From: Oscillospiraceae bacterium
Lineage (GTDB): Bacteria > Bacillota > Clostridia > Oscillospirales > CAG-272
DNA length: 64,000 nt
Assembly: GCA_015064395.1 (NCBI GenBank)
Contig: SVSH01000009.1
Location: 1-64,000, forward strand
Direction: 5' to 3'
Shown piece after piece: positions 6,120 through 29,753 of this stretch. A program made the position numbers and the translations under genes. The notes under the pieces were generated by a model. The model worked only from the letters and a program-made list of their open reading frames with translations, did not search any database and was not told the DNA's origin. The number at the start of each line of letters is the position of its first letter. Position 1 is the stretch's first letter.

Positions 6120-6623
6120 TTAGTTTTTTCTTCTAAAATACCTCACCGCCGCAGGAATATATACGATCAGCGAACCGATCAGACCTGCCAGAAGTACGGC
6201 AAACAGATGAACAATGCTTTTTTCCTCGATTGCTCGCCATGCGCCGAGCAACAGGTGTGCAGGAACAGTCATTAACAAATAGGTCAGCGGGTGATCAAAC
6301 AGCCGCCGGGCGGTAAACGCCGCATACACACCGCAAGCAAAAAACAACAGCGGCAAGACGGAGATGCCAACGCCCACAAGAGCGTCGAGTAAAAATCCGC
6401 CGATCATGCCGAAGACAGCACCTGCCACAGGTCCCCTCTTCCAGCCCAACAGCAAAACGAGAGCGAAAGTCAATTCTACCGTCGCGCCAAAAATAGGAAC
6501 GTAGGAGAGAAAGCTTGCTTGGATGATACAAAACAGCCACAAAAGTAGCAAATACAGCACCCATTTTAAGGGGGTCAGCGGCTCTCGCGCCAGCTTACGA
6601 TCATCTCGGATCTCATGGTTCAC
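6120..6623 (-). CDS. mreD: rod shape-determining protein MreD
   Basis: 167 aa multi-TM protein directly downstream of and overlapping mreC; MreD-like topology. Confidence 0.82.
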   Translation of the reverse strand: MNHEIRDDRKLAREPLTPLKWVLYLLLLWLFCIIQASFLSYVPIFGATVELTFALVLLLGWKRGPVAGAVFGMIGGFLLDALVGVGISVLPLLFFACGVYAAFTARRLFDHPLTYLLMTVPAHLLLGAWRAIEEKSIVHLFAVLLAGLIGSLIVYIPAAVRYFRRKN

Positions 6624-7479
6624 GGTCCGTCACCTCCTCACCCCCGGATTGCCCTGTGACGATCATCAAAACGTCGGTTGCCCCATAGTCAGCATACAGC
6701 CTGACGTAGGCATAGGGGGAGCGGTCGTAGGCATCGGCACCGACCTCTACGATCTCGCCGATGATGATTCCGCCGGGGTAGGTCTCGCCAAAGCCGTTGG
6801 TCACCACGACGTCGCCTACCTGTAGGGCAGTCTGATAGTCTACGTTGGTGTCCAAATATTGAAGCTTGGCATGTTCATTTCCCGCTTGCAGGCCGCAGAG
6901 CGTTCCGTTGATGCCCGATCGAACGACCATCGCACCGACAAACACCGTTTCATCCCTCAGTGTTGTGACCTTACAGGTGGCCGCGGATACCTCACTGACG
7001 GTACCGTACAGTCCCGATGCACTCAGCACCGGCATACCGACTGCCACGCCGTGCCGGCTTCCCCGATTGAGGGTCACCGTTCTGCCTGACGGGTCGTTGT
7101 TATATATAATTGCTGCATCTGTCAGAATAAGATCCTTATTTTCTTGTTTCAGATCCAAATATTCGCGCAGCTGCTCGTTTTCCTTTTTCAGTTGCTCCAG
7201 GGTAGAAAGCTGATCCTTGAGCTTGCCGATCTCGCCTTGAGCATCGGATAATTGTTGTTTAAGATTTTCGTAGTCGTCCCGACTTGCCATCGCACCTTGA
7301 GCGGCTTTACCGGCAGATGAAAGCAGGCGGGTGAAAGGAGAGGAGAGGGTGGTGATCGTACCTCGTATGACGTCTTTGGTTTGAGTCAGGGAGAGGGCGG
7401 TGGGGATAGCGCAAAGGAGCAGAGCGATGACAAGGCAGATGGCGAGTTGTTTGGGAAGAGTCAGTTTTTTTCTTCGCAT
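6613..7479 (-). CDS. mreC: rod shape-determining protein MreC
   Basis: 288 aa; N-terminal TM, coiled coil, GLYGTVSEVSAATCKVTTLRDETVFVGAMVVRSGINGTLCG, VVTNGFGETYPGGIIIGEI. Confidence 0.92.
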   Translation of the reverse strand: MRRKKLTLPKQLAICLVIALLLCAIPTALSLTQTKDVIRGTITTLSSPFTRLLSSAGKAAQGAMASRDDYENLKQQLSDAQGEIGKLKDQLSTLEQLKKENEQLREYLDLKQENKDLILTDAAIIYNNDPSGRTVTLNRGSRHGVAVGMPVLSASGLYGTVSEVSAATCKVTTLRDETVFVGAMVVRSGINGTLCGLQAGNEHAKLQYLDTNVDYQTALQVGDVVVTNGFGETYPGGIIIGEIVEVGADAYDRSPYAYVRLYADYGATDVLMIVTGQSGGEEVTDREP

Positions 7480-13185: not shown

Positions 13186-13735
13186 TTAACTACTTCTTCT
13201 GTTTGACACGCACACAGCTGTGCGCGTGCGCTGTACCGGCTTTGATGTTACTTCTTTGTCATTCAACAAAGAAGTAACCAAGAAAATGAACCCAGGCGTT
13301 CCCCCTGGGAACCCCCTGGCATTGCCGCTCTACAAAGAGCAACAAGAGAGATCACATAAACGCTTTTAGTGCTGTGCCTCAAATTAAGACAACACGAGCG
13401 GCAGGTGAGGAAAAAAAGGGCTTTTGCTTTCCGTATTGCGAAAAAGTTATGCTTTCATAAGGTGCGTTGAACGGTGGCAAGAGTTTTTGCTATCGCATCC
13501 TGCGTGTACCTTCCGTGTTTGCAAGTTTTTTTAACTTGCAAACACAAGCGTTGAAGGAGCAAACTTTTGCGAAAAGATAAGCAGAGCGACAGCGCCGCGT
13601 CCTTTTCGCACTGCGGGTTTCCAAAGGGTATTAGACCCTTTGGTCCGCTTTCTTGGTTCGTTCTTTCTCGGATGAGAAAGAATGAACACCTATGCATTCA
13701 GCGAGCGCGTTGTGCGAGCCTGTAGGAGAAGTCCT
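13186..13735. repeat. modular intergenic repeat copy R5 (both ends)
   Basis: Left end CTTCTTCTGTTTGACACGCACACAGCTGTGCGCGTGCGCTGTACCGG with GTTACTTCTTTGT-N6-ACAAAGAAGTAAC; right end GTTCGTTCTTTCTC-GGAT-GAGAAAGAATGAAC. Confidence 0.87.
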
Positions 13736-16755: not shown

Positions 16756-16787
16756 TTTTAAAAGTTTTTTATAGATTTTTTAAAGTG

Positions 16788-17432
16788 GTAACAACTTCTT
16801 CTTTTGACGCTCACACTGTGCTTCGCACGCGCTCGCTGTGCCGGTTTTAATGTCCTTTCTTTGTCGCTGAACAAAGAAAGGACGAAAGAAAATCAGCCAA
16901 AGGCTGCCGCCTTTGGAAACCGCTCCTTTGCTGCCCTACAAAGAGAAAGACGAGAGGTCGCATGAACACTTTTAGTGCTGTGCCTCGACTTAAGACAGCA
17001 CGAGCGGCAGGCGGAGGAAGCAAGAGCTTTTGCTTTCCGTTTTGCGGAAAATTCGAGCTATCAAAAGGTGCGTTGAACAGAAGCAAAAGCTTTTGCTGTT
17101 GCATCTTGCGTGCTACTTCCATGTTTGCAAGTTTTTTAACTTGCAAACGCAAGCACTGAAGATGTGTGATTTTGCGTCGTGTTGCGCGGAGCGAGAGCGC
17201 AGCGCCTACAAAGACGCACTGCGGGGTTCCAAAGGGCTCCAGGCCCTTTGGCGCCCTTCTTCCGCCACTTCTTGGGGCGTGCCAAGAAGTGGCATTAAAC
17301 GCACAGCGCGCCGCGATGTCAGATTTGGCAAGCAAATGCCAAGTTTTGTTCACCCGCTGAACACGGGCGTCATGCAAGCATGAACACAAAACTTGTGGCG
17401 CGCCCGGGGATAGAAAGCTAAATTTCAAATAA
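16788..17432. repeat. modular intergenic repeat copy R7 (both ends, carries a three-way-junction insert)
   Basis: Left end CTTCTTCTTTTGACGCTCACACTGTGCTTCGCACGCGCTCGCTGTGCCGG; GTCCTTTCTTTGT-N6-ACAAAGAAAGGAC; TTTGCAAGTTTTTTAACTTGCAAA; right-end hairpin CCACTTCTTGG..CCAAGAAGTGG. Confidence 0.85.
17340..17395. repeat. fourth copy of the oriC-adjacent three-way-junction motif
   Basis: CAAGTTTTGTTCACCCGCTGAACACGGGCGTCATGCAAGCATGAACACAAAACTTG: same outer stem and same GCTGAAC / TGAACRC positions as the copies at 14.3-14.6 kb. Confidence 0.8.
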
Positions 17433-20238: not shown

Positions 20239-20339
20239 AGAATCGCCTCTTTTCTTACATTATTGATAGGTAGTATTATTATAAACTTTATTTGTTGATT
20301 TGTCAATGGAGGGGGGATGGGGGGGAGGGTTTTGCTAAA

Positions 20340-20803
20340 TTTCAAACAACTACTCCTCTTGACGCGCACACAGCTTCGCGCGTGCGCTGTGCCGGTTTTG
20401 ATGTTACTTCTTTGTCTTTCAACAAAGAAGTAACCAAGAAAATGAACCCGGACGTTCCCTCCGGGGCCTCCCTTACTTTGCCGCTCTACAAAGAGAAAGA
20501 CGAGAGGTCACATATACATTTTTTATGCTGTGCCTCCAATTTAGTTACCACGAGCGGCAGATATAGAAAGCAAGAACTTTTGCTATAACAAACCCATCTT
20601 GGGCGTGCGCTCATGCGCCCAAGATGGAGGAGGCTTGCGAAAGCAAAAGTCCCGGCGGCTCTCAAAAAGCCGTCGGGCGGTGGGGTCCCAAGGGGTGTCC
20701 CCTTGGTTCCCTTCTTGGCTACTTCTTGGGGAATGCCAAGAAGTAGCATAGGCACTTCCGCCGCGCGTTGTGGCGCGCCTATCTGTAGAAGCAGTTGTTA
20801 AAA
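20340..20803. repeat. modular intergenic repeat copy R8 (both ends)
   Basis: Left end CTACTCCTCTTGACGCGCACACAGCTTCGCGCGTGCGCTGTGCCGG; internal CCCATCTTGGGCGTGCGCTCATGCGCCCAAGATGG; right-end hairpin GCTACTTCTTGG-N6-CCAAGAAGTAGC. Confidence 0.85.
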
Positions 20804-20816
20804 TATTAATGCAACA

Positions 20817-20853
20817 AAAAAGCAAGTCGAACCACAAAGATCCAACTTGCTTT
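20817..20853 (-). terminator. terminator of the PBP2-like gene
   Basis: AAAGCAAGT..ACTTGCTTT immediately after the stop with a T run on the minus strand. Confidence 0.7.
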
Positions 20854-22952
20854 CATCCTTTATTCCATTGCTCCAAAACAGCCTCGATCACCGGCTCTGC
20901 CACGGAAGCCTCTCCCCCGTTTTCCACGATCACCGCCACACAAATACCCGTGAGCGGCTGATCCGACAGAAAAACAACAGGGGTAGAATAAGCCAGCATA
21001 ACGGCGTGATCCGTTCCGCCATTACCGGAAGGAACCGAAGATGCAAAGCACCCTGCCTGAACGCCGAGTGTGTTCAGCCCCTCAACCAATCCTTCCAAAC
21101 GGCCACTTTGCTTCATCGCATCGCGCATCGCATCAAGCAAAAGGGTGCGACCTTCCCCGCTCAATGCATACTCGCAAAGAAGGGTGGGCTGTGTCTTTTG
21201 CGTGACGTCGCCGCTTGTGAAGTTGCGAACCTCATACAATAAATGAGAGGAATATCGCTTGCCGCCGCTGACGATGCTTGATAGCATAGAGCAAAGCTGG
21301 GCAGGCGTGCAGACCGTGTCTCCCTCGCCAAGAGCAGCCTTGATCAGTGCCGCTTCGTTGTCCTTGGCAATGGAAGAAGCCCTTCCCTCCTCCTCGGACA
21401 GTTCAATGCCTGTTTTTTGGCCAAAGCCAAGCAAAGATTCATAGGAAGCGTAGCGCTCAAGCCCCAGGCCTTGCGCCAGTTTTCCAAAGAAAATATCGCA
21501 CTTGTCCACGATCGCCGTGGAGGCGTTGATAAAGCCGTGGGAGACGTCCGTTTGGATCAGCATGGGACACAAAAGCGTGTATCCTTCTACCTTCAATACG
21601 CCCGAATCGACCCAAAGAGTAGAGGAATCGACCAGTCCCGAGCCAACCCCCGCCGTTCCCGTACAAAGCTGCATGAGCTTGCCGGGAAAATACAGACCCG
21701 ACAGGGCGCGGTTGAGCAAGGGAGAAGCAGGGTCAGAGGCGAGCTGATCGTAGTTTTCGTTGAACAGCGTCGCATCAAAGGTCGGTGCACTGGCAAGAGC
21801 CAGACACTCGCCCGTGTTGGGGTCGGTGGCGATCACAGCTCCCTTTTTCAGCCCCGTCCTCTGGAGCTGATCGCGCAGAGAATCCTCTGCTGCCATCTGG
21901 GTGTCAATGTCAATGGTCAGACGGATGTCCTGCCCGGCGATGGGCTGCTTGATGACGGTCGAGGAGACCGTCTGTCCCTGTTCGTTCTTGGTGATCTGCA
22001 TCTGCCCGTCCACACCGTGCAAAATGCTCTCAAAAGCACTCTCACAGCCGGCAACGCCCACGATAGCGTTCATGGGGTAGCCCAAGGAATTGTAGTATTC
22101 CCAGTCCTCGGCAAAGATCTTACCCACACGGCCGAGAATATGCGAAGCGTAGCCGGGATAATGATACACCCGCTCGGCGCGAACGATAAATGCCACGCCC
22201 CGCAAGGGCGACTCCTTATTGGCCGCCAGCACCGATGCGCTGACGCCCTTGGCCAGCGTGTATTCGGTCGTGTCACTGCCAAAGCGGCACAGATCCATGT
22301 CGTAGTACAGCCGGATCAGCTTGGTGATCTCCTCGCCCGTGTAAAGAGGAACGCCGTCCAGGTGGGCGTCCAGCGAGTAGGTCTTGACGTAATATTGCGC
22401 CAGCGCGCCGGCTGTGGTTTTTTGAGACAGCCCCAGGCGAGACAGAAGCTTGTCAAGGCGCTGGGCTACGATGGAGTTTCCGTCGCGCGCCTCGTCGTTA
22501 TAGGTAAAGGTAGGGTAGATGCCGGCAAGAGGAAAGGAATCCTCGGTCAGCTCGCCCGCCTCAGGGGTGGACAGGTAGGAAAGCAGCGTCAGGAGTGAAG
22601 AATTTCGGACGGCAATGCCTTGATCGGTAACAAAAGGATCGTGGTGCAACACCAGATCGTAAGCGTATACGTTGGTGACCAGCGGCTTGCCGTTTCGATC
22701 GTAAATATCGCCTCGGACGGCTTGCAGTGTGACCGTTTGGACGGTATAGCCGGCGGGAACAGAGGGCTTTTCCTTGTAGATGGAATAGGCGTTCCCCTTG
22801 GCCTGCAAAGAGATCAGAATCACGGCGTAGACCATACAGACCGCGACAAAAAAGCCGGACAGTACGGTAATTCGGCGGGAGAAGATGGCGTGCGGCGTGC
22901 GCTTGATCTTTTTCTTTTTTCTTTTTTTGCGTTGATACAGCGGCTGTGGCAA
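20853..22952 (-). CDS. PBP2-like transpeptidase-fold protein, catalytic motifs degenerate
   Basis: 699 aa; N-terminal TM, GDIYDRNGKPLVTNVYAYDL, DIRLTIDIDTQMAAEDSL, GAVIATDPNTGECLALASAPTFD, LGFGQKTGIEL; SxxK, SxN and KTG positions not conserved. Confidence 0.88.
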   Translation of the reverse strand: MPQPLYQRKKRKKKKIKRTPHAIFSRRITVLSGFFVAVCMVYAVILISLQAKGNAYSIYKEKPSVPAGYTVQTVTLQAVRGDIYDRNGKPLVTNVYAYDLVLHHDPFVTDQGIAVRNSSLLTLLSYLSTPEAGELTEDSFPLAGIYPTFTYNDEARDGNSIVAQRLDKLLSRLGLSQKTTAGALAQYYVKTYSLDAHLDGVPLYTGEEITKLIRLYYDMDLCRFGSDTTEYTLAKGVSASVLAANKESPLRGVAFIVRAERVYHYPGYASHILGRVGKIFAEDWEYYNSLGYPMNAIVGVAGCESAFESILHGVDGQMQITKNEQGQTVSSTVIKQPIAGQDIRLTIDIDTQMAAEDSLRDQLQRTGLKKGAVIATDPNTGECLALASAPTFDATLFNENYDQLASDPASPLLNRALSGLYFPGKLMQLCTGTAGVGSGLVDSSTLWVDSGVLKVEGYTLLCPMLIQTDVSHGFINASTAIVDKCDIFFGKLAQGLGLERYASYESLLGFGQKTGIELSEEEGRASSIAKDNEAALIKAALGEGDTVCTPAQLCSMLSSIVSGGKRYSSHLLYEVRNFTSGDVTQKTQPTLLCEYALSGEGRTLLLDAMRDAMKQSGRLEGLVEGLNTLGVQAGCFASSVPSGNGGTDHAVMLAYSTPVVFLSDQPLTGICVAVIVENGGEASVAEPVIEAVLEQWNKG

Positions 22953-22994: not shown

Positions 22995-24194
22995 TTATGC
23001 TACCGGCACAAAGGTGGAGATCCAGGCGCTGAGGAACCAAAGACCAAACAAAAGAGCGCAGGTTACGATGGACGCAATGATACCGCCGTTGGAAAATGCG
23101 TTGGTCAGAGCGTCACCGTGGGTCAACTGATCCTCGCGGCGGCGAACGGTAAACTTGCGGAAATGAACGATGAGAAGGATCAGACCGGCAATGGCAAGGC
23201 CAAAGCGCATAGCGGTCATTCCCATCAGTGCGGCGTATGCCCCCAGATGCTCGGAAATATAGGGCATAAGCTCCTCCTCGCCAAGGGTCAAGAAGGTGTC
23301 ATAGTCCAGCCAGTTTGAAATCAATGTGGGTACAATACCGCCAAAGAAGTTGATGACCATGTGTAAAAAGACACCGTTGAGCCAGTTTCCCGTGCGGGCA
23401 TACAAGAACGCCAGGAGAAGTCCCAGCATGGTAGCGTAAAAGAACTGATAGAAATTGCCGTGGAAGGCGCCGAAGAGCAGACTGCTGACCAAAATTGCGG
23501 CCAATTCTCCGTGAGGCAGCATGCGGTCCATGAGAAGCTTGCGGAAGATCAGCTCCTCAAACACAGGGGCGCAGATCACCGTCGTCAGCATAGACAGCCA
23601 AAGCGGAACGTCCAGGGTTTCACTCAGCGAATTTTCAAAATTGATCCCGGTCAGAGACGCCAGCATAGAAACGAAGGACTCGCCCATCAGGCTTCCCGCC
23701 AGCATGATCGTCTGCGATATGATAAACAGAATGAGAAAATGAGACAGCTTCAGCTTTTTTCTCTCGGGAATCTCGGTGGGGAGCTTGCGCACGAGAAGGT
23801 AAAGCAGCGGAATGCCTATCGTATACAGCGGCAGGGTGGACGCTAAAATAGAGAACCAATAGCTCTCATAAATGTGAGGAGCGAGCGTGTAGACCTGATC
23901 CACCAGCGTCTGCGCCACAACGTACCAGGCGACGGTCATGGCAACGAATGCCCAGCCGAGCTTGGAATAAGAGACTCTGAGCTTATCGCGCGCGAGAGCA
24001 CGGTCGATATCGCGGGCGTACGAATCATCCTCTGTGGTCGGTTGCTCCGGCATGGGCGCGGAATCCGTGTTTCCTTGCGTCACCTCTTTGACCGGTGGCA
24101 CGGGATCTGTCGGTTCCTCCGTCTTGGGCGAGGGCTTTGGCTCCTCGGGTGCGTTAAAGGAGTAAAAATCAAAATTGGGATTGTGATCCTTCAT
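22995..24194 (-). CDS. CPBP family intramembrane glutamic endopeptidase
   Basis: 399 aa multi-TM; APVFEELIFRKLLMDRM and LLFGAFHGNFYQFFYATMLGLLL motifs. Confidence 0.9.
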   Translation of the reverse strand: MKDHNPNFDFYSFNAPEEPKPSPKTEEPTDPVPPVKEVTQGNTDSAPMPEQPTTEDDSYARDIDRALARDKLRVSYSKLGWAFVAMTVAWYVVAQTLVDQVYTLAPHIYESYWFSILASTLPLYTIGIPLLYLLVRKLPTEIPERKKLKLSHFLILFIISQTIMLAGSLMGESFVSMLASLTGINFENSLSETLDVPLWLSMLTTVICAPVFEELIFRKLLMDRMLPHGELAAILVSSLLFGAFHGNFYQFFYATMLGLLLAFLYARTGNWLNGVFLHMVINFFGGIVPTLISNWLDYDTFLTLGEEELMPYISEHLGAYAALMGMTAMRFGLAIAGLILLIVHFRKFTVRRREDQLTHGDALTNAFSNGGIIASIVTCALLFGLWFLSAWISTFVPVA

Positions 24195-24233: not shown

Positions 24234-25208
24234 TTATTTGCCCTCGTCGATGGCCTTTTGCAGCCCCTTGACGACGCAATCGCCGCACTCGGCGGCAGTG
24301 GTCACCCGCATACCGATGCCGTTGGCGATGACCTTGGAAAGACCGGGCAAAAGGGCGCTCTCGCCGCACAGAACGGGTCCGGTGGCAAAGACGTCCGAGC
24401 TAAGCTCGGGCGGGGCGGCCTCCAGTGCCGCTCTCATGAGTTGAATGATACGCAAAATAGGCTTGCGAAGCGCCTGCGCCACGTCAGCAGAGGAAATCTC
24501 TGCCGTGATGGCAAGACCGTTTTGCACGCTTCGGCCGCTGACCTGAATGGTACCGCGGTCGATGGCGGGGTGCGCCGTCCCAATGCGATGCTTGATGGCA
24601 TTGGCAGATTGCTCTCCAATAATAAGACCGTAGGCCGCCCGCAGATGAGAGATAATGGCGCGGTCAAATTCGTCGCCTGCCACCCGTCCGGTACGGGCGC
24701 TGACGACGCCGTCGTAGCACAGAACGGCCGCTTTGGTCGTTCCGCCGCCGATATCGACGATCATACTGCCGCGCGGGCTTGAGATATTCAGTCCTGCACC
24801 GTAAGCGGCGGCGATGGCATGGGGAATGAGGTGAACGTTTCTTGCGCCTGCGTCGCGCATCACGTCCTCCAGGGCGCGGCGTTCCACCTCGGTGATGCCG
24901 TGCGGAATGGATGCCACGACGGTGGGGCGTTGCAAAAAGCCAATGGCTTGTGCTTGCTTGAAAAAGGTATGAAGCATCATAACTGCCAAGTCGTAATCGG
25001 CAACGACGCTGTCCTGCAGGGGATGGCAGGCACGGACACCTGCGGGGGTACGACCCAGCATGGGGAGTGCCTCCTTACCGATGGCAATGGGATCTCCCGT
25101 GCGGGAATTGATCGCAACTGCCGAGGGAAAACGCTGGATCAGCACGTGTTCGCGGCGACTGATACGGGTATGGGTGGTACCGAGGTCAATGGCGAGGGGA
25201 GATGACAT
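24234..25208 (-). CDS. mreB: rod shape-determining protein MreB family
   Basis: 324 aa; AIDLGTTHTRISRR, GSMIVDIGGGTTKAAVL, GRVAGDEFDRAIISHLRAAYGLIIGEQSANAIK. Confidence 0.9.
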   Translation of the reverse strand: MSSPLAIDLGTTHTRISRREHVLIQRFPSAVAINSRTGDPIAIGKEALPMLGRTPAGVRACHPLQDSVVADYDLAVMMLHTFFKQAQAIGFLQRPTVVASIPHGITEVERRALEDVMRDAGARNVHLIPHAIAAAYGAGLNISSPRGSMIVDIGGGTTKAAVLCYDGVVSARTGRVAGDEFDRAIISHLRAAYGLIIGEQSANAIKHRIGTAHPAIDRGTIQVSGRSVQNGLAITAEISSADVAQALRKPILRIIQLMRAALEAAPPELSSDVFATGPVLCGESALLPGLSKVIANGIGMRVTTAAECGDCVVKGLQKAIDEGK

Positions 25209-25247
25209 GGGGATGCTCCTTTCGGGGGAAATTGAAGGGGTATCTAA

Positions 25248-25875
25248 AGTTTGAACAACTACTTCTTTTGACGCTCACACTGCACTTCGTGCGCGTTCGC
25301 TGTACCGGTTTTGATGTTACTTCTTTGTCGTTCAACAAAGAAGTAACCAAGAAAGTGAACCCGGACGTTCCCTCCGGGACCTCCCTTTCTTTGCCGCTCT
25401 ACAAAGAGGAAGACGAGAGATCACATATAAGCCGTTAATGCTGTGCCTCCAAGTTTGCCAACACGAGCGGCAGGCGGAAAAAGCAAAAAGTTTTGCCTTC
25501 TCGTAGGGACCGACGTCCTCGGCGGTCCGTCTTCTCGGCAGATGTGGAAAGCAATGGCCTTTGCTTTCCGTTTTTGCATAAAATTTATGCTAACATAAGG
25601 TGCGTTGAATAATAGCAAAAGCTTTTGCTTTTGCATCTTGCGTGCCACTTCCGTGTTTGCAAGTTTTTTTAACTTGCAAACGCAAGCGCTGAAACTGTTT
25701 ACTTTTGCGTCGTGTTGCGCGGAGCGAGAGCGCAGCGCCCACTAAGACGCACTGCGGGGTGCCAAGGGGCATTAGGCCCCTTGGTCCGCTTTCTTGGTTC
25801 GTTCTTTCTCGGATGAGAAAGAATGAACACACCTCACCCGCCGCGCATTGTGCGGCGGACAAAAGGAGAAACCGT
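25248..25875. repeat. modular intergenic repeat copy R9 (both ends, longest typical form)
   Basis: Left end CTACTTCTTTTGACGCTCACACTGCACTTCGTGCGCGTTCGCTGTACCGG with GTTACTTCTTTGT..ACAAAGAAGTAAC; right end GTTCGTTCTTTCTCGGATGAGAAAGAATGAAC. Confidence 0.87.
25502..25529. repeat. GTAGGGACCG-type REP-like palindrome
   Basis: GTAGGGACCGACGTCCTCGGCGGTCCG inside R9; related sequence at 45.3 kb. Confidence 0.55.
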
Positions 25876-25880
25876 AAAAA

Positions 25881-26480
25881 TTACATATTTCCCCACAATG
25901 ACAATTCAAAATTCTCCTTCAACACCACTTCCATACGATGTAAGGGCAATCCAACTACGTTAAAATAGTCTCCTCTGATGCCTTCAATCCAAAGCGAAGC
26001 GGTATCCTGAATACCATACGCCCCCGCCTTATCCATCGGCTCACCCGAGGCAATATATGCGTCAATCACATCGTCCGAAAGCGGGGCAAAGGAAACCTCC
26101 GTCACCTCGTGAGCGGTAACGGTCTGCCCACCTTTGACCACGCAAATACCGCTGATGACTCGGTGGGTGTTGCCCGACAACGACCGAAGCATACGACGGG
26201 CATCGTCCGCGTCATGCGGCTTGCCTAAAATTTCACCATCCGGACTGACCACAACCGTGTCTGCCGCCAGTATGACCGTATCGTCGTCCAAGCGACCCTC
26301 TTCGTTCAGCAGATTTTTCACAGCGGCGGCCTTGCGAGCGGCTAATATTTCCACCAGCCGTCCGCCGTCGCGCTCCTCACTGCTCTCGTGTGCGTCGGCA
26401 CAGACAACGCTAAAATTCAATCCCAAATGCTGCAGCATCTCCCGACGTCGGGGAGAGGCAGAGGCGAGAATCCAGGTCAT
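25881..26480 (-). CDS. maf: Maf family nucleotide pyrophosphatase
   Basis: 199 aa; ILASASPRRREMLQHLGLNF, ILAADTVVVSPDGEILGKPHDADDARRMLRSLSGNTHRVISG. Confidence 0.95.
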   Translation of the reverse strand: MTWILASASPRRREMLQHLGLNFSVVCADAHESSEERDGGRLVEILAARKAAAVKNLLNEEGRLDDDTVILAADTVVVSPDGEILGKPHDADDARRMLRSLSGNTHRVISGICVVKGGQTVTAHEVTEVSFAPLSDDVIDAYIASGEPMDKAGAYGIQDTASLWIEGIRGDYFNVVGLPLHRMEVVLKENFELSLWGNM

Positions 26481-28772: not shown

Positions 28773-28821
28773 GATTGGGTAAAGTCCCTTTCTTTTTTGG
28801 GATAGGTGGGGGGATCTAAAT

Positions 28822-29335
28822 TTTTAACTACTTTTTCTTTTGACGCTCACACTGTGCTTCGCACGCGTTCGCTGTACCGGCATTGGATGTTACTTCTTTG
28901 TCGTTCAACAAAGAAGTAACCAAGAAAGTGAACCAAGACGTTCCCTCTTGGAACTCCCTTTCCGTGTCACGCTACAAAGCGGATCAAGAGATAGACATGT
29001 TATTTTTTTATGTGGTGCTTCAAGTCTTGCTAACACGCGTGACAGATATAGAAAGCAAAAGTGTTTGCCCTAAAATGAGCGTGGCTTTTTTGAAGCCGCG
29101 CTCGCAAGCGCTGAAATTTTACATCTTCGCGTCGTGTTGCGCGGAGCGGGAGCGTAGCGCCCACAAAGACGCGCCGCGGGGTCCCAAGGGGCTTGCCCCT
29201 TGGCTGATTTTCTTTCGCCATTTCTTTGTTCAGCGACAAAGAAATGGCACAAAACCATACACCGAGCGCGCGCAGCTCGACGAAGTCGAGGTGGGCTGTG
29301 CGAGGCTGTAGAAGAAGACGCAGAAAATTTAGTTC
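28822..29335. repeat. modular intergenic repeat copy R10 (both ends)
   Basis: Left end CTTTTTCTTTTGACGCTCACACTGTGCTTCGCACGCGTTCGCTGTACCGG; right-end hairpin GCCATTTCTTTGT-N6-ACAAAGAAATGGC; CAGCTCGACGAAGTCGAGGTGGGCTGTGCG. Confidence 0.85.
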
Positions 29336-29337
29336 TT

Positions 29338-29712
29338 CTTCTCTCGCCGTTTTGCCACCACGAGCGGCAGGTAGAGGAAGCAAGGAATTTTGCTTTCCGT
29401 TTTGCGGAAAATTTAAGCTATCAAAAGGTGCGTTGAATAATAGCAAAAGCTTTTGCTCTTGCACCTTGCGTGCCACTTCCGTGTTTGCAAGTTTCTTTAA
29501 CTTGCAAACGCAAGCGCTGAAGATGCAGGCTTTTGCGCCACAATCAGAGGAAACCTCGTTTCCTCGTGGCGCACGGTGGGGATCCAAGGGGGAACCCCTT
29601 GGTGTCTTTTCTTCGCCTATTCTTTGCGACAAGGCAAAGAATAGGCATCAGCCGCACACCAAGCGCGCACAGCTCGACGAAGTCGAGGTGGGCTGGGCGA
29701 GGCTGTAGAAAA
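29338..29712. repeat. modular intergenic repeat copy R11 (right half)
   Basis: CACGAGCGGCAGG, GGTGCGTTGAATAATAGCAAAAGCTTTTGCT, TTTGCAAGTTTCTTTAACTTGCAAA, GCCTATTCTTTGC-N6-GCAAAGAATAGGC, CTCGACGAAGTCGAGG. Confidence 0.83.
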
Positions 29713-29753
29713 AAGTCGCTCAAACCTTCGCTATCAGCTCTTTACTCTGAATA

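Follow-up and report, generated by a model that had tools for sequence, protein, structure and literature searches.

A PBP2-type protein without transpeptidase motifs, retained in an Oscillospiraceae genus as a candidate non-catalytic subunit of RodA

It is textbook knowledge that RodA polymerises and PBP2 cross-links, the two proteins working as a coupled pair. According to the available text of PMC6207328, PMC10257715 and PMC8078798, PBP2 not only cross-links but also regulates RodA as its subunit, through surfaces that lie in the pedestal and in the membrane helix. In particular, it has been reported that RodA still polymerises when PBP2 transpeptidation is blocked by mecillinam, that changes in the pedestal activate RodA, and that in E. 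coli RodA running without PBP2 cross-linking is toxic (PMC6207328). Moreover, lipid II was polymerised by RodA alone or together with an inactive PBP2 (PMC7793260), a result by which part of the activity of RodA may be independent of PBP2. PMC12713402 describes the B. subtilis gene for PBP2b as essential and the catalytic activity of its product as dispensable.

The systems closest to the one described here are laboratory catalytic mutants, namely B. subtilis PBP2b and C. difficile SpoVD S311A, which indicate, as far as the available text of PMC12713402 goes, that a non-catalytic class B PBP can support its SEDS partner; these are, however, engineered, and a second class B PBP is implicated. 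The protein that we name pseudo-PBP2 differs from them in that the loss is natural, fixed in four species, and accompanied by no spare PBP2 that could be found. Similarly, in the mecillinam-inhibited E. coli RodA-PBP2, glycan polymerisation continues without PBP2 cross-linking (PMC6207328), with the toxicity mentioned above, whereas the pseudo-PBP2 lineage lives in this state. No description of a natural motif-less PBP2 was found in the part of the PMC literature that was searched; the fold and the family are known, and the natural pseudoenzyme state appears to be new.

A class B PBP at the mreB locus

The window analysed is a stretch of 64,000 nucleotides of contig SVSH01000009.1, from an Oscillospiraceae genome (G000 in the following) that is 90% complete. 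The gene and its parts are:

20853..22952, minus strand: pseudo-PBP2, MrdA ortholog without SxxK, SxN and KTG, 699 aa, TTG start (domain and motif alignment)
21963..22724, minus strand: PBP_dimer/pedestal domain, residues 77-330, 35/35 family-conserved sites kept (Pfam, conservation table)
21111..21842, minus strand: transpeptidase-like (TP) domain, residues 371-614, with KLMQ at the SxxK site (425-428) and KCD at the SxN site (484-486) (Pfam, alignment)
20856..21110, minus strand: C-terminal part, residues 615-699, expected location of KTG, 2/11 conserved sites kept (alignment)
20818..20854, minus strand: intrinsic terminator, 16-pair stem followed by a U-rich tail, overlapping the stop codon of pseudo-PBP2 (folding)

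The product of 20853-22952 belongs to the PBP2/MrdA type of class B PBPs. The original prediction, made from the letters of the window, had described a full-length PBP2-like protein with an intact ORF and its own terminator, and all of this was borne out: the frame is open over 699 aa, the TTG start is preceded by GGAAAGGGGGA, a purine-rich, Shine-Dalgarno-like stretch, and the stem at the stop codon has a folding energy of −21 kcal/mol (z −5.1). Pfam recognised PBP_dimer at residues 77-330 (E 3.7e-28) and Transpeptidase at residues 371-614 (E 1.2e-23), both above the curated cut-off, and the top NCBIfam model was pbp2_mrdA (TIGR03423), at 271.8 bits. Pseudo-PBP2 is like the members of TIGR03423 in domain order, pedestal, locus beside mreB and co-occurrence with RodA, but unlike them in the absence of SxxK, SxN and KTG and in a score of 272 bits against an equivalog cut-off of 455. 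The best PDB sequence matches were MrdA chains, among them chain 6pl5_B of the Thermus RodA-PBP2 complex, and a scan of genome contigs gave four distant PBPs only. The structure model was poor (mean pLDDT 48.8, pTM 0.52), because, besides the window protein, its input alignment had only four distant relatives; on this model the best Foldseek match was again 6pl5_B (E 3.1e-25, TM 0.40/0.47, rmsd 17.9), which gives weak support at most.

The genes relevant to the locus are the following:

22995..24194, minus strand: CAAX/Rce1-like membrane protease, flanked by mreB and pseudo-PBP2 and separated from each by about 40 nt (gene order)
24234..25208, minus strand: MreB paralog, opening the gene group (profile match, gene order)
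25881..26480, minus strand: maf, conserved neighbour marking the orthologous locus (gene order)
6613..7479, minus strand: mreC, between gyrB and gyrA (gene order)
6120..6623, minus strand: probable mreD (follows mreC; weakly similar to the gene that follows mreC in relatives)

Pseudo-PBP2 had been placed two genes from mreB, and this is the order found, mreB, CAAX protease, pseudo-PBP2. Over a longer distance, the window and G031 have maf-mreB-CAAX-pseudo-PBP2-copA-dnaA-dnaN-recF-gyrB, and G115, whose PBP2 is intact, carries maf-mreB-PBP2-copA-dnaA-dnaN-recF-gyrB on one stretch. The maf-mreB-PBP2 neighbourhood was also found in G068, G001, G136, G032 and G056, as expected for an orthologous locus, and G070 has mreB-CAAX-PBP2 on a contig that stops before maf. 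Since its gene order is common to G115, pseudo-PBP2 is the positional ortholog of PBP2, hence the ancestral PBP2 and not a spare copy.

Some further features of the neighbourhood were observed. A CAAX/Rce1-like protease next to PBP2 is not confined to the genus: G032 and G070 have one beside an intact PBP2, which makes it a recurrent neighbour of elongation genes. In the window, mreC and the probable mreD lie between gyrB and gyrA, apart from mreB, a layout found also in G031, and in G136 and G056 mreC and mreD adjoin mreB and PBP2; the MreD model gave no match to the product of 6120..6623. Two MreB-type actins, 37% identical, are encoded in the window genome, one at 24234-25208 and the other on contig 32 of G000; the window copy has the lower MreB-model score of the two and was not found in G092 and G146.

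Loss of the catalytic motifs in one clade

The comparison was based on 146 genomes of the family and on six of the genus. By splitting the match list at an E of about 1e-25, PBP2 was counted in 76 of the 146 genomes and 70 were scored without it, the call in G119 being doubtful (partial protein at a contig end, E 2.3e-27). Four partial rows (L155, L156, L157 and L161) were left out of the tree and of the 69-row conservation table; L156, the N-terminal half of the G109 protein, is also outside the count of 72 reported below. Pseudo-PBP2 is present in four of the six genus genomes (G000, G135, G031 and G092), with a mutual identity of 38-77%.

SxxK, SxN and K(T/S)G are all missing from the four genus copies and all present in the other family PBP2s readable across the catalytic domain (72/72). 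In the family alignment the window protein has KLMQ in place of SxxK, KCD in place of SxN and GCFASS near the place of GKTGTA. The original prediction had claimed that all three motifs were lost, reading PGKLMQ at the SxxK site and KCD at the SxN site, in full agreement with this alignment; its reading of VQAG at the KTG position was right as to the missing motif and probably wrong as to the place, the counterpart being more likely GCFASS (residues 634-639; GCIGAS in G135 and G031, GYLGAQ in G092), with VQAG a few residues upstream. MAFFT puts this counterpart one column off, and the motif is missing under either placement. An alternative alignment with intact motifs, which would have spoken against the prediction, was sought and rejected, as none of the alignments brought the motifs back.

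Several sites that are invariant in all 69 near-complete intact relatives are altered in all four genus copies. In the order G000, G135, G031 and G092, S425 is replaced by K, K, K and T, K428 by Q, H, Q and T, S484 by K, G, G and G, N486 by D, D, D and E, and Q543 by E, E, E and L; K636, G638 and T639 of KTGT are likewise altered. With no motif left, pseudo-PBP2 is expected neither to bind penicillin nor to cross-link. The shared replacements, D/D/D/E at 486 and K/K/K/T at 425, could hint at a new chemistry, or at cross-linking continued by the replacement residues; however, none of the copies retains a Ser nucleophile or general base at these sites, and 428, 484 and KTG are replaced differently from species to species, which is unexpected for a new active site and makes this explanation very improbable.

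The four motif-less copies form one clade (SH-aLRT 100), and in the simplest history the motifs would have been lost once, before the four species split, the loss then being lasting. Since these genomes are drafts, 86-90% complete, one could think of an assembly or alignment error, or of an intact PBP2 elsewhere in the genome doing the work. On the other hand, the loss is seen in four separate genomes with differing substitutions, and the search for PBP2-type proteins, which was also a check proposed with the prediction for the window genome, found no second PBP2 in any of the four drafts; the only candidate, an extra weak match in G031, was rejected because it is the N-terminus of FtsI. An artefact of this kind is hardly credible.

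Conservation of the reading frame and of the pedestal

The reading frame and the pedestal of pseudo-PBP2 are kept under purifying selection. No in-frame stop was found in any of the four species, and in the closest pair, G135/G031, dN was 0.153 and dS 1.11, with a dN/dS of 0.137, dS being near saturation in wider pairs. The pedestal of this pair gave a dN/dS of 0.121, the TP domain 0.105 and the C-terminus 0.239; in g68, the intact PBP2 pair closest in MreB divergence (MreB 91.8% vs 93.0% identical), the ratio was 0.18. When neutral change of at least 10% was simulated, none of 500 frames remained free of stops. The dN/dS in relatives had been proposed as a check, and a frame decaying with stops as the observation that would overturn the prediction: the former indicates selection, and the latter did not occur. 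Neither frame decay nor neutral substitution was found, and pseudogene decay was rejected on the basis of the absent stops, the low dN/dS and the simulations.

To describe where the constraint falls, conserved sites were defined as the residues shared by at least 90% of the 69 intact relatives. The window protein retains 35/35 of them in the pedestal, 32/46 in the TP domain and 2/11 in the C-terminus (pedestal 35/35 vs TP plus C-terminus 34/57, p 2.5e-6). By the stricter count of sites kept in all four copies, the values were 28/35, 29/46 and 1/11, respectively, and the pedestal contrast was 28/35 vs 30/57 (p 0.014); the G092 copy retains 29/35 pedestal residues. Among intact pairs, the conservation of the TP domain roughly matches or exceeds that of the pedestal: the two are about equal in g32, g20 and g68, and g18 has 76-87% in the TP domain against 52-71% in the pedestal. 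The order is reversed in the motif-less clade, in which the G000/G135 pair gave 63% for the pedestal, 54.5% for the TP domain and 34.5% for the C-terminus. In the G135 copy (L009), we also observed that the near-invariant pedestal residues R86 and N87, at the GDIYDRNG position, are changed to C and H, the other conserved pedestal sites being kept.

The same data bear on the possibility that the elongation system has become dispensable and that pseudo-PBP2, its catalysis gone, is a functionless remnant slowly fading. The C-terminal part is indeed strongly relaxed, with 1/11 conserved sites kept in all four copies, and PBP2 is missing from 70/146 family genomes and, within the genus, from G146 and maybe G147. 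Nevertheless, four species at 38-77% identity without a stop, a dN/dS of 0.137 in the closest pair and of 0.105 even in the TP domain, neutral simulations that fill with stops and a conserved pedestal are difficult to reconcile with a relic, which we consider improbable.

RodA, the remaining cross-linkers and the proposed role

In the family sample, two SEDS genes, the second being that of the polymerase RodA, were found in 69/76 genomes with PBP2 and in 6/70 without it (p 7.6e-26); by genus, a second SEDS gene was present in 32/35 with PBP2 vs 4/36 without, kinship being handled at genus level only and 13 genomes being discordant. Three sampled genera are mixed for PBP2, and the SEDS count follows PBP2 in g29 and g31 but not in g5, where the PBP2 call is doubtful. 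PBP2 and the second SEDS gene are absent from roughly half of the 146 genomes, mostly together, also within g29 and g31. Pseudo-PBP2 co-occurs with RodA as well: each of its four genomes carries two SEDS genes, against a single one in G146, where PBP2 is absent. The Asp of the HTDF motif is kept in the five RodA proteins of the genus, that of G000 being encoded on contig 29, the eight compared relatives keep Asp there, and we take it to be the counterpart of FtsW D297. The latter is a putative catalytic residue according to the available text of PMC8765783. Each of the four pseudo-PBP2 genomes retains RodA with this Asp, together with one MreB or more. In G147, of the same genus, MreB and RodA are present and PBP2 was not found, and about 580 bp behind the CAAX gene contain no PBP2 start; the genome being 73% complete, in 340 contigs and with a dispersed repeat behind this gene, it is weak counter-evidence.

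As for other enzymes, the only other PBP_dimer protein of the window genome is FtsI-type, whose motifs are intact here and in all the genus genomes (6/6), with the N-terminus on a separate contig in G031. The window genome, where class A PBPs were sought, also encodes one of this class, whose SAIK, SVN and KTG look intact, and a DacA-like protein. YkuD L,D-transpeptidases (PF03734) were rejected as substitute cross-linkers, being matched in 3/146 family genomes and in no genus member within that sample, which covered four of them and neither G146 nor G147.

Taken together, we favour the explanation, with a probability of about 0.6, that the only PBP2 found in the genus, turned into a pseudo-transpeptidase, is retained to hold or activate RodA through its pedestal. 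Pseudo-PBP2 would sit in the membrane beside RodA, its transmembrane helix and pedestal would hold RodA in an active state, the way PBP2 acts in E. coli and Thermus, and RodA so held would polymerise glycan strands that pseudo-PBP2 itself could not cross-link. Cross-linking of the strands would instead fall to the FtsI-type PBP, the class A PBP or both, whose motifs are intact in the window genome, given the rarity of YkuD enzymes in the family and the lack of matches in the four members of the genus that were covered. For a protein whose RodA-facing half is kept and whose catalytic half is lost, the most economical reading is a non-catalytic subunit of RodA, and binding of pseudo-PBP2 to RodA is inferred indirectly, from the conserved pedestal and the co-retention. 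Some points have a cost for this explanation: the system is dispensable in the family and, as G146 has neither PBP2 nor RodA, in the genus, and the toxicity reported for E. coli (PMC6207328) means that a compensating cross-linker must be assumed. The pedestal residues missing from G092, the 13 discordant genomes and the poor structure model also weigh against it.

A pseudo-transpeptidase acting as an elongasome scaffold or regulator had been suggested at the outset. The comparative data strengthen its first part, a protein retained after its catalysis was lost, through four species, purifying selection and a constraint moved to the pedestal; the elongasome role gains from mreB synteny and RodA co-retention, and a specific partnership with RodA is our own suggestion. 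A different scaffold or sensor could also be imagined, which would not activate RodA but would have as its main partner the CAAX protease, MreB, MreC or wall fragments lodged in the former active-site cleft. The gene group mreB-CAAX-pseudo-PBP2 is compatible with it, and the dead TP domain, under purifying selection and with shared replacements (acidic 486, Lys 425 in 3/4), may bind something. We regard it as unlikely, given that PBP2 presence tracks the second SEDS gene, that the best-kept region is the pedestal, RodA- and MreC-facing by published work, and that G092 keeps pseudo-PBP2 without the adjacent mreB paralog.

If RodA is the partner, the genus would offer a natural, selected separation of function, and we lean slightly towards this broader view: a class B PBP without transpeptidase serving as a purely allosteric subunit of RodA. 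Side-wall polymerisation would then no longer be coupled to a cross-linker of its own, and beta-lactams would not affect it at PBP2. A lineage with the RodA-PBP2 pair minus the cross-linking half of PBP2 is a natural test of whether the structural role justifies retention by itself, in a system from which the transpeptidase variable has already been removed, and it shows an intermediate stage in a family of which about half the sampled genomes do without the pair.

Finally, many intergenic gaps of the window (13200-13690, 16780-17260, 20360-20860, 25245-25830, 28817-29713 and others) are occupied by imperfect repeats, dispersed and about 80-250 nt long, and a short piece of such a repeat lies behind the CAAX gene of G147 (L085). 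A sigma-70 promoter matching the consensus at 12/12 positions (TTGACA-17-TATAAT) was observed at 20278-20306, on the minus strand, before the copper-type P-ATPase gene.
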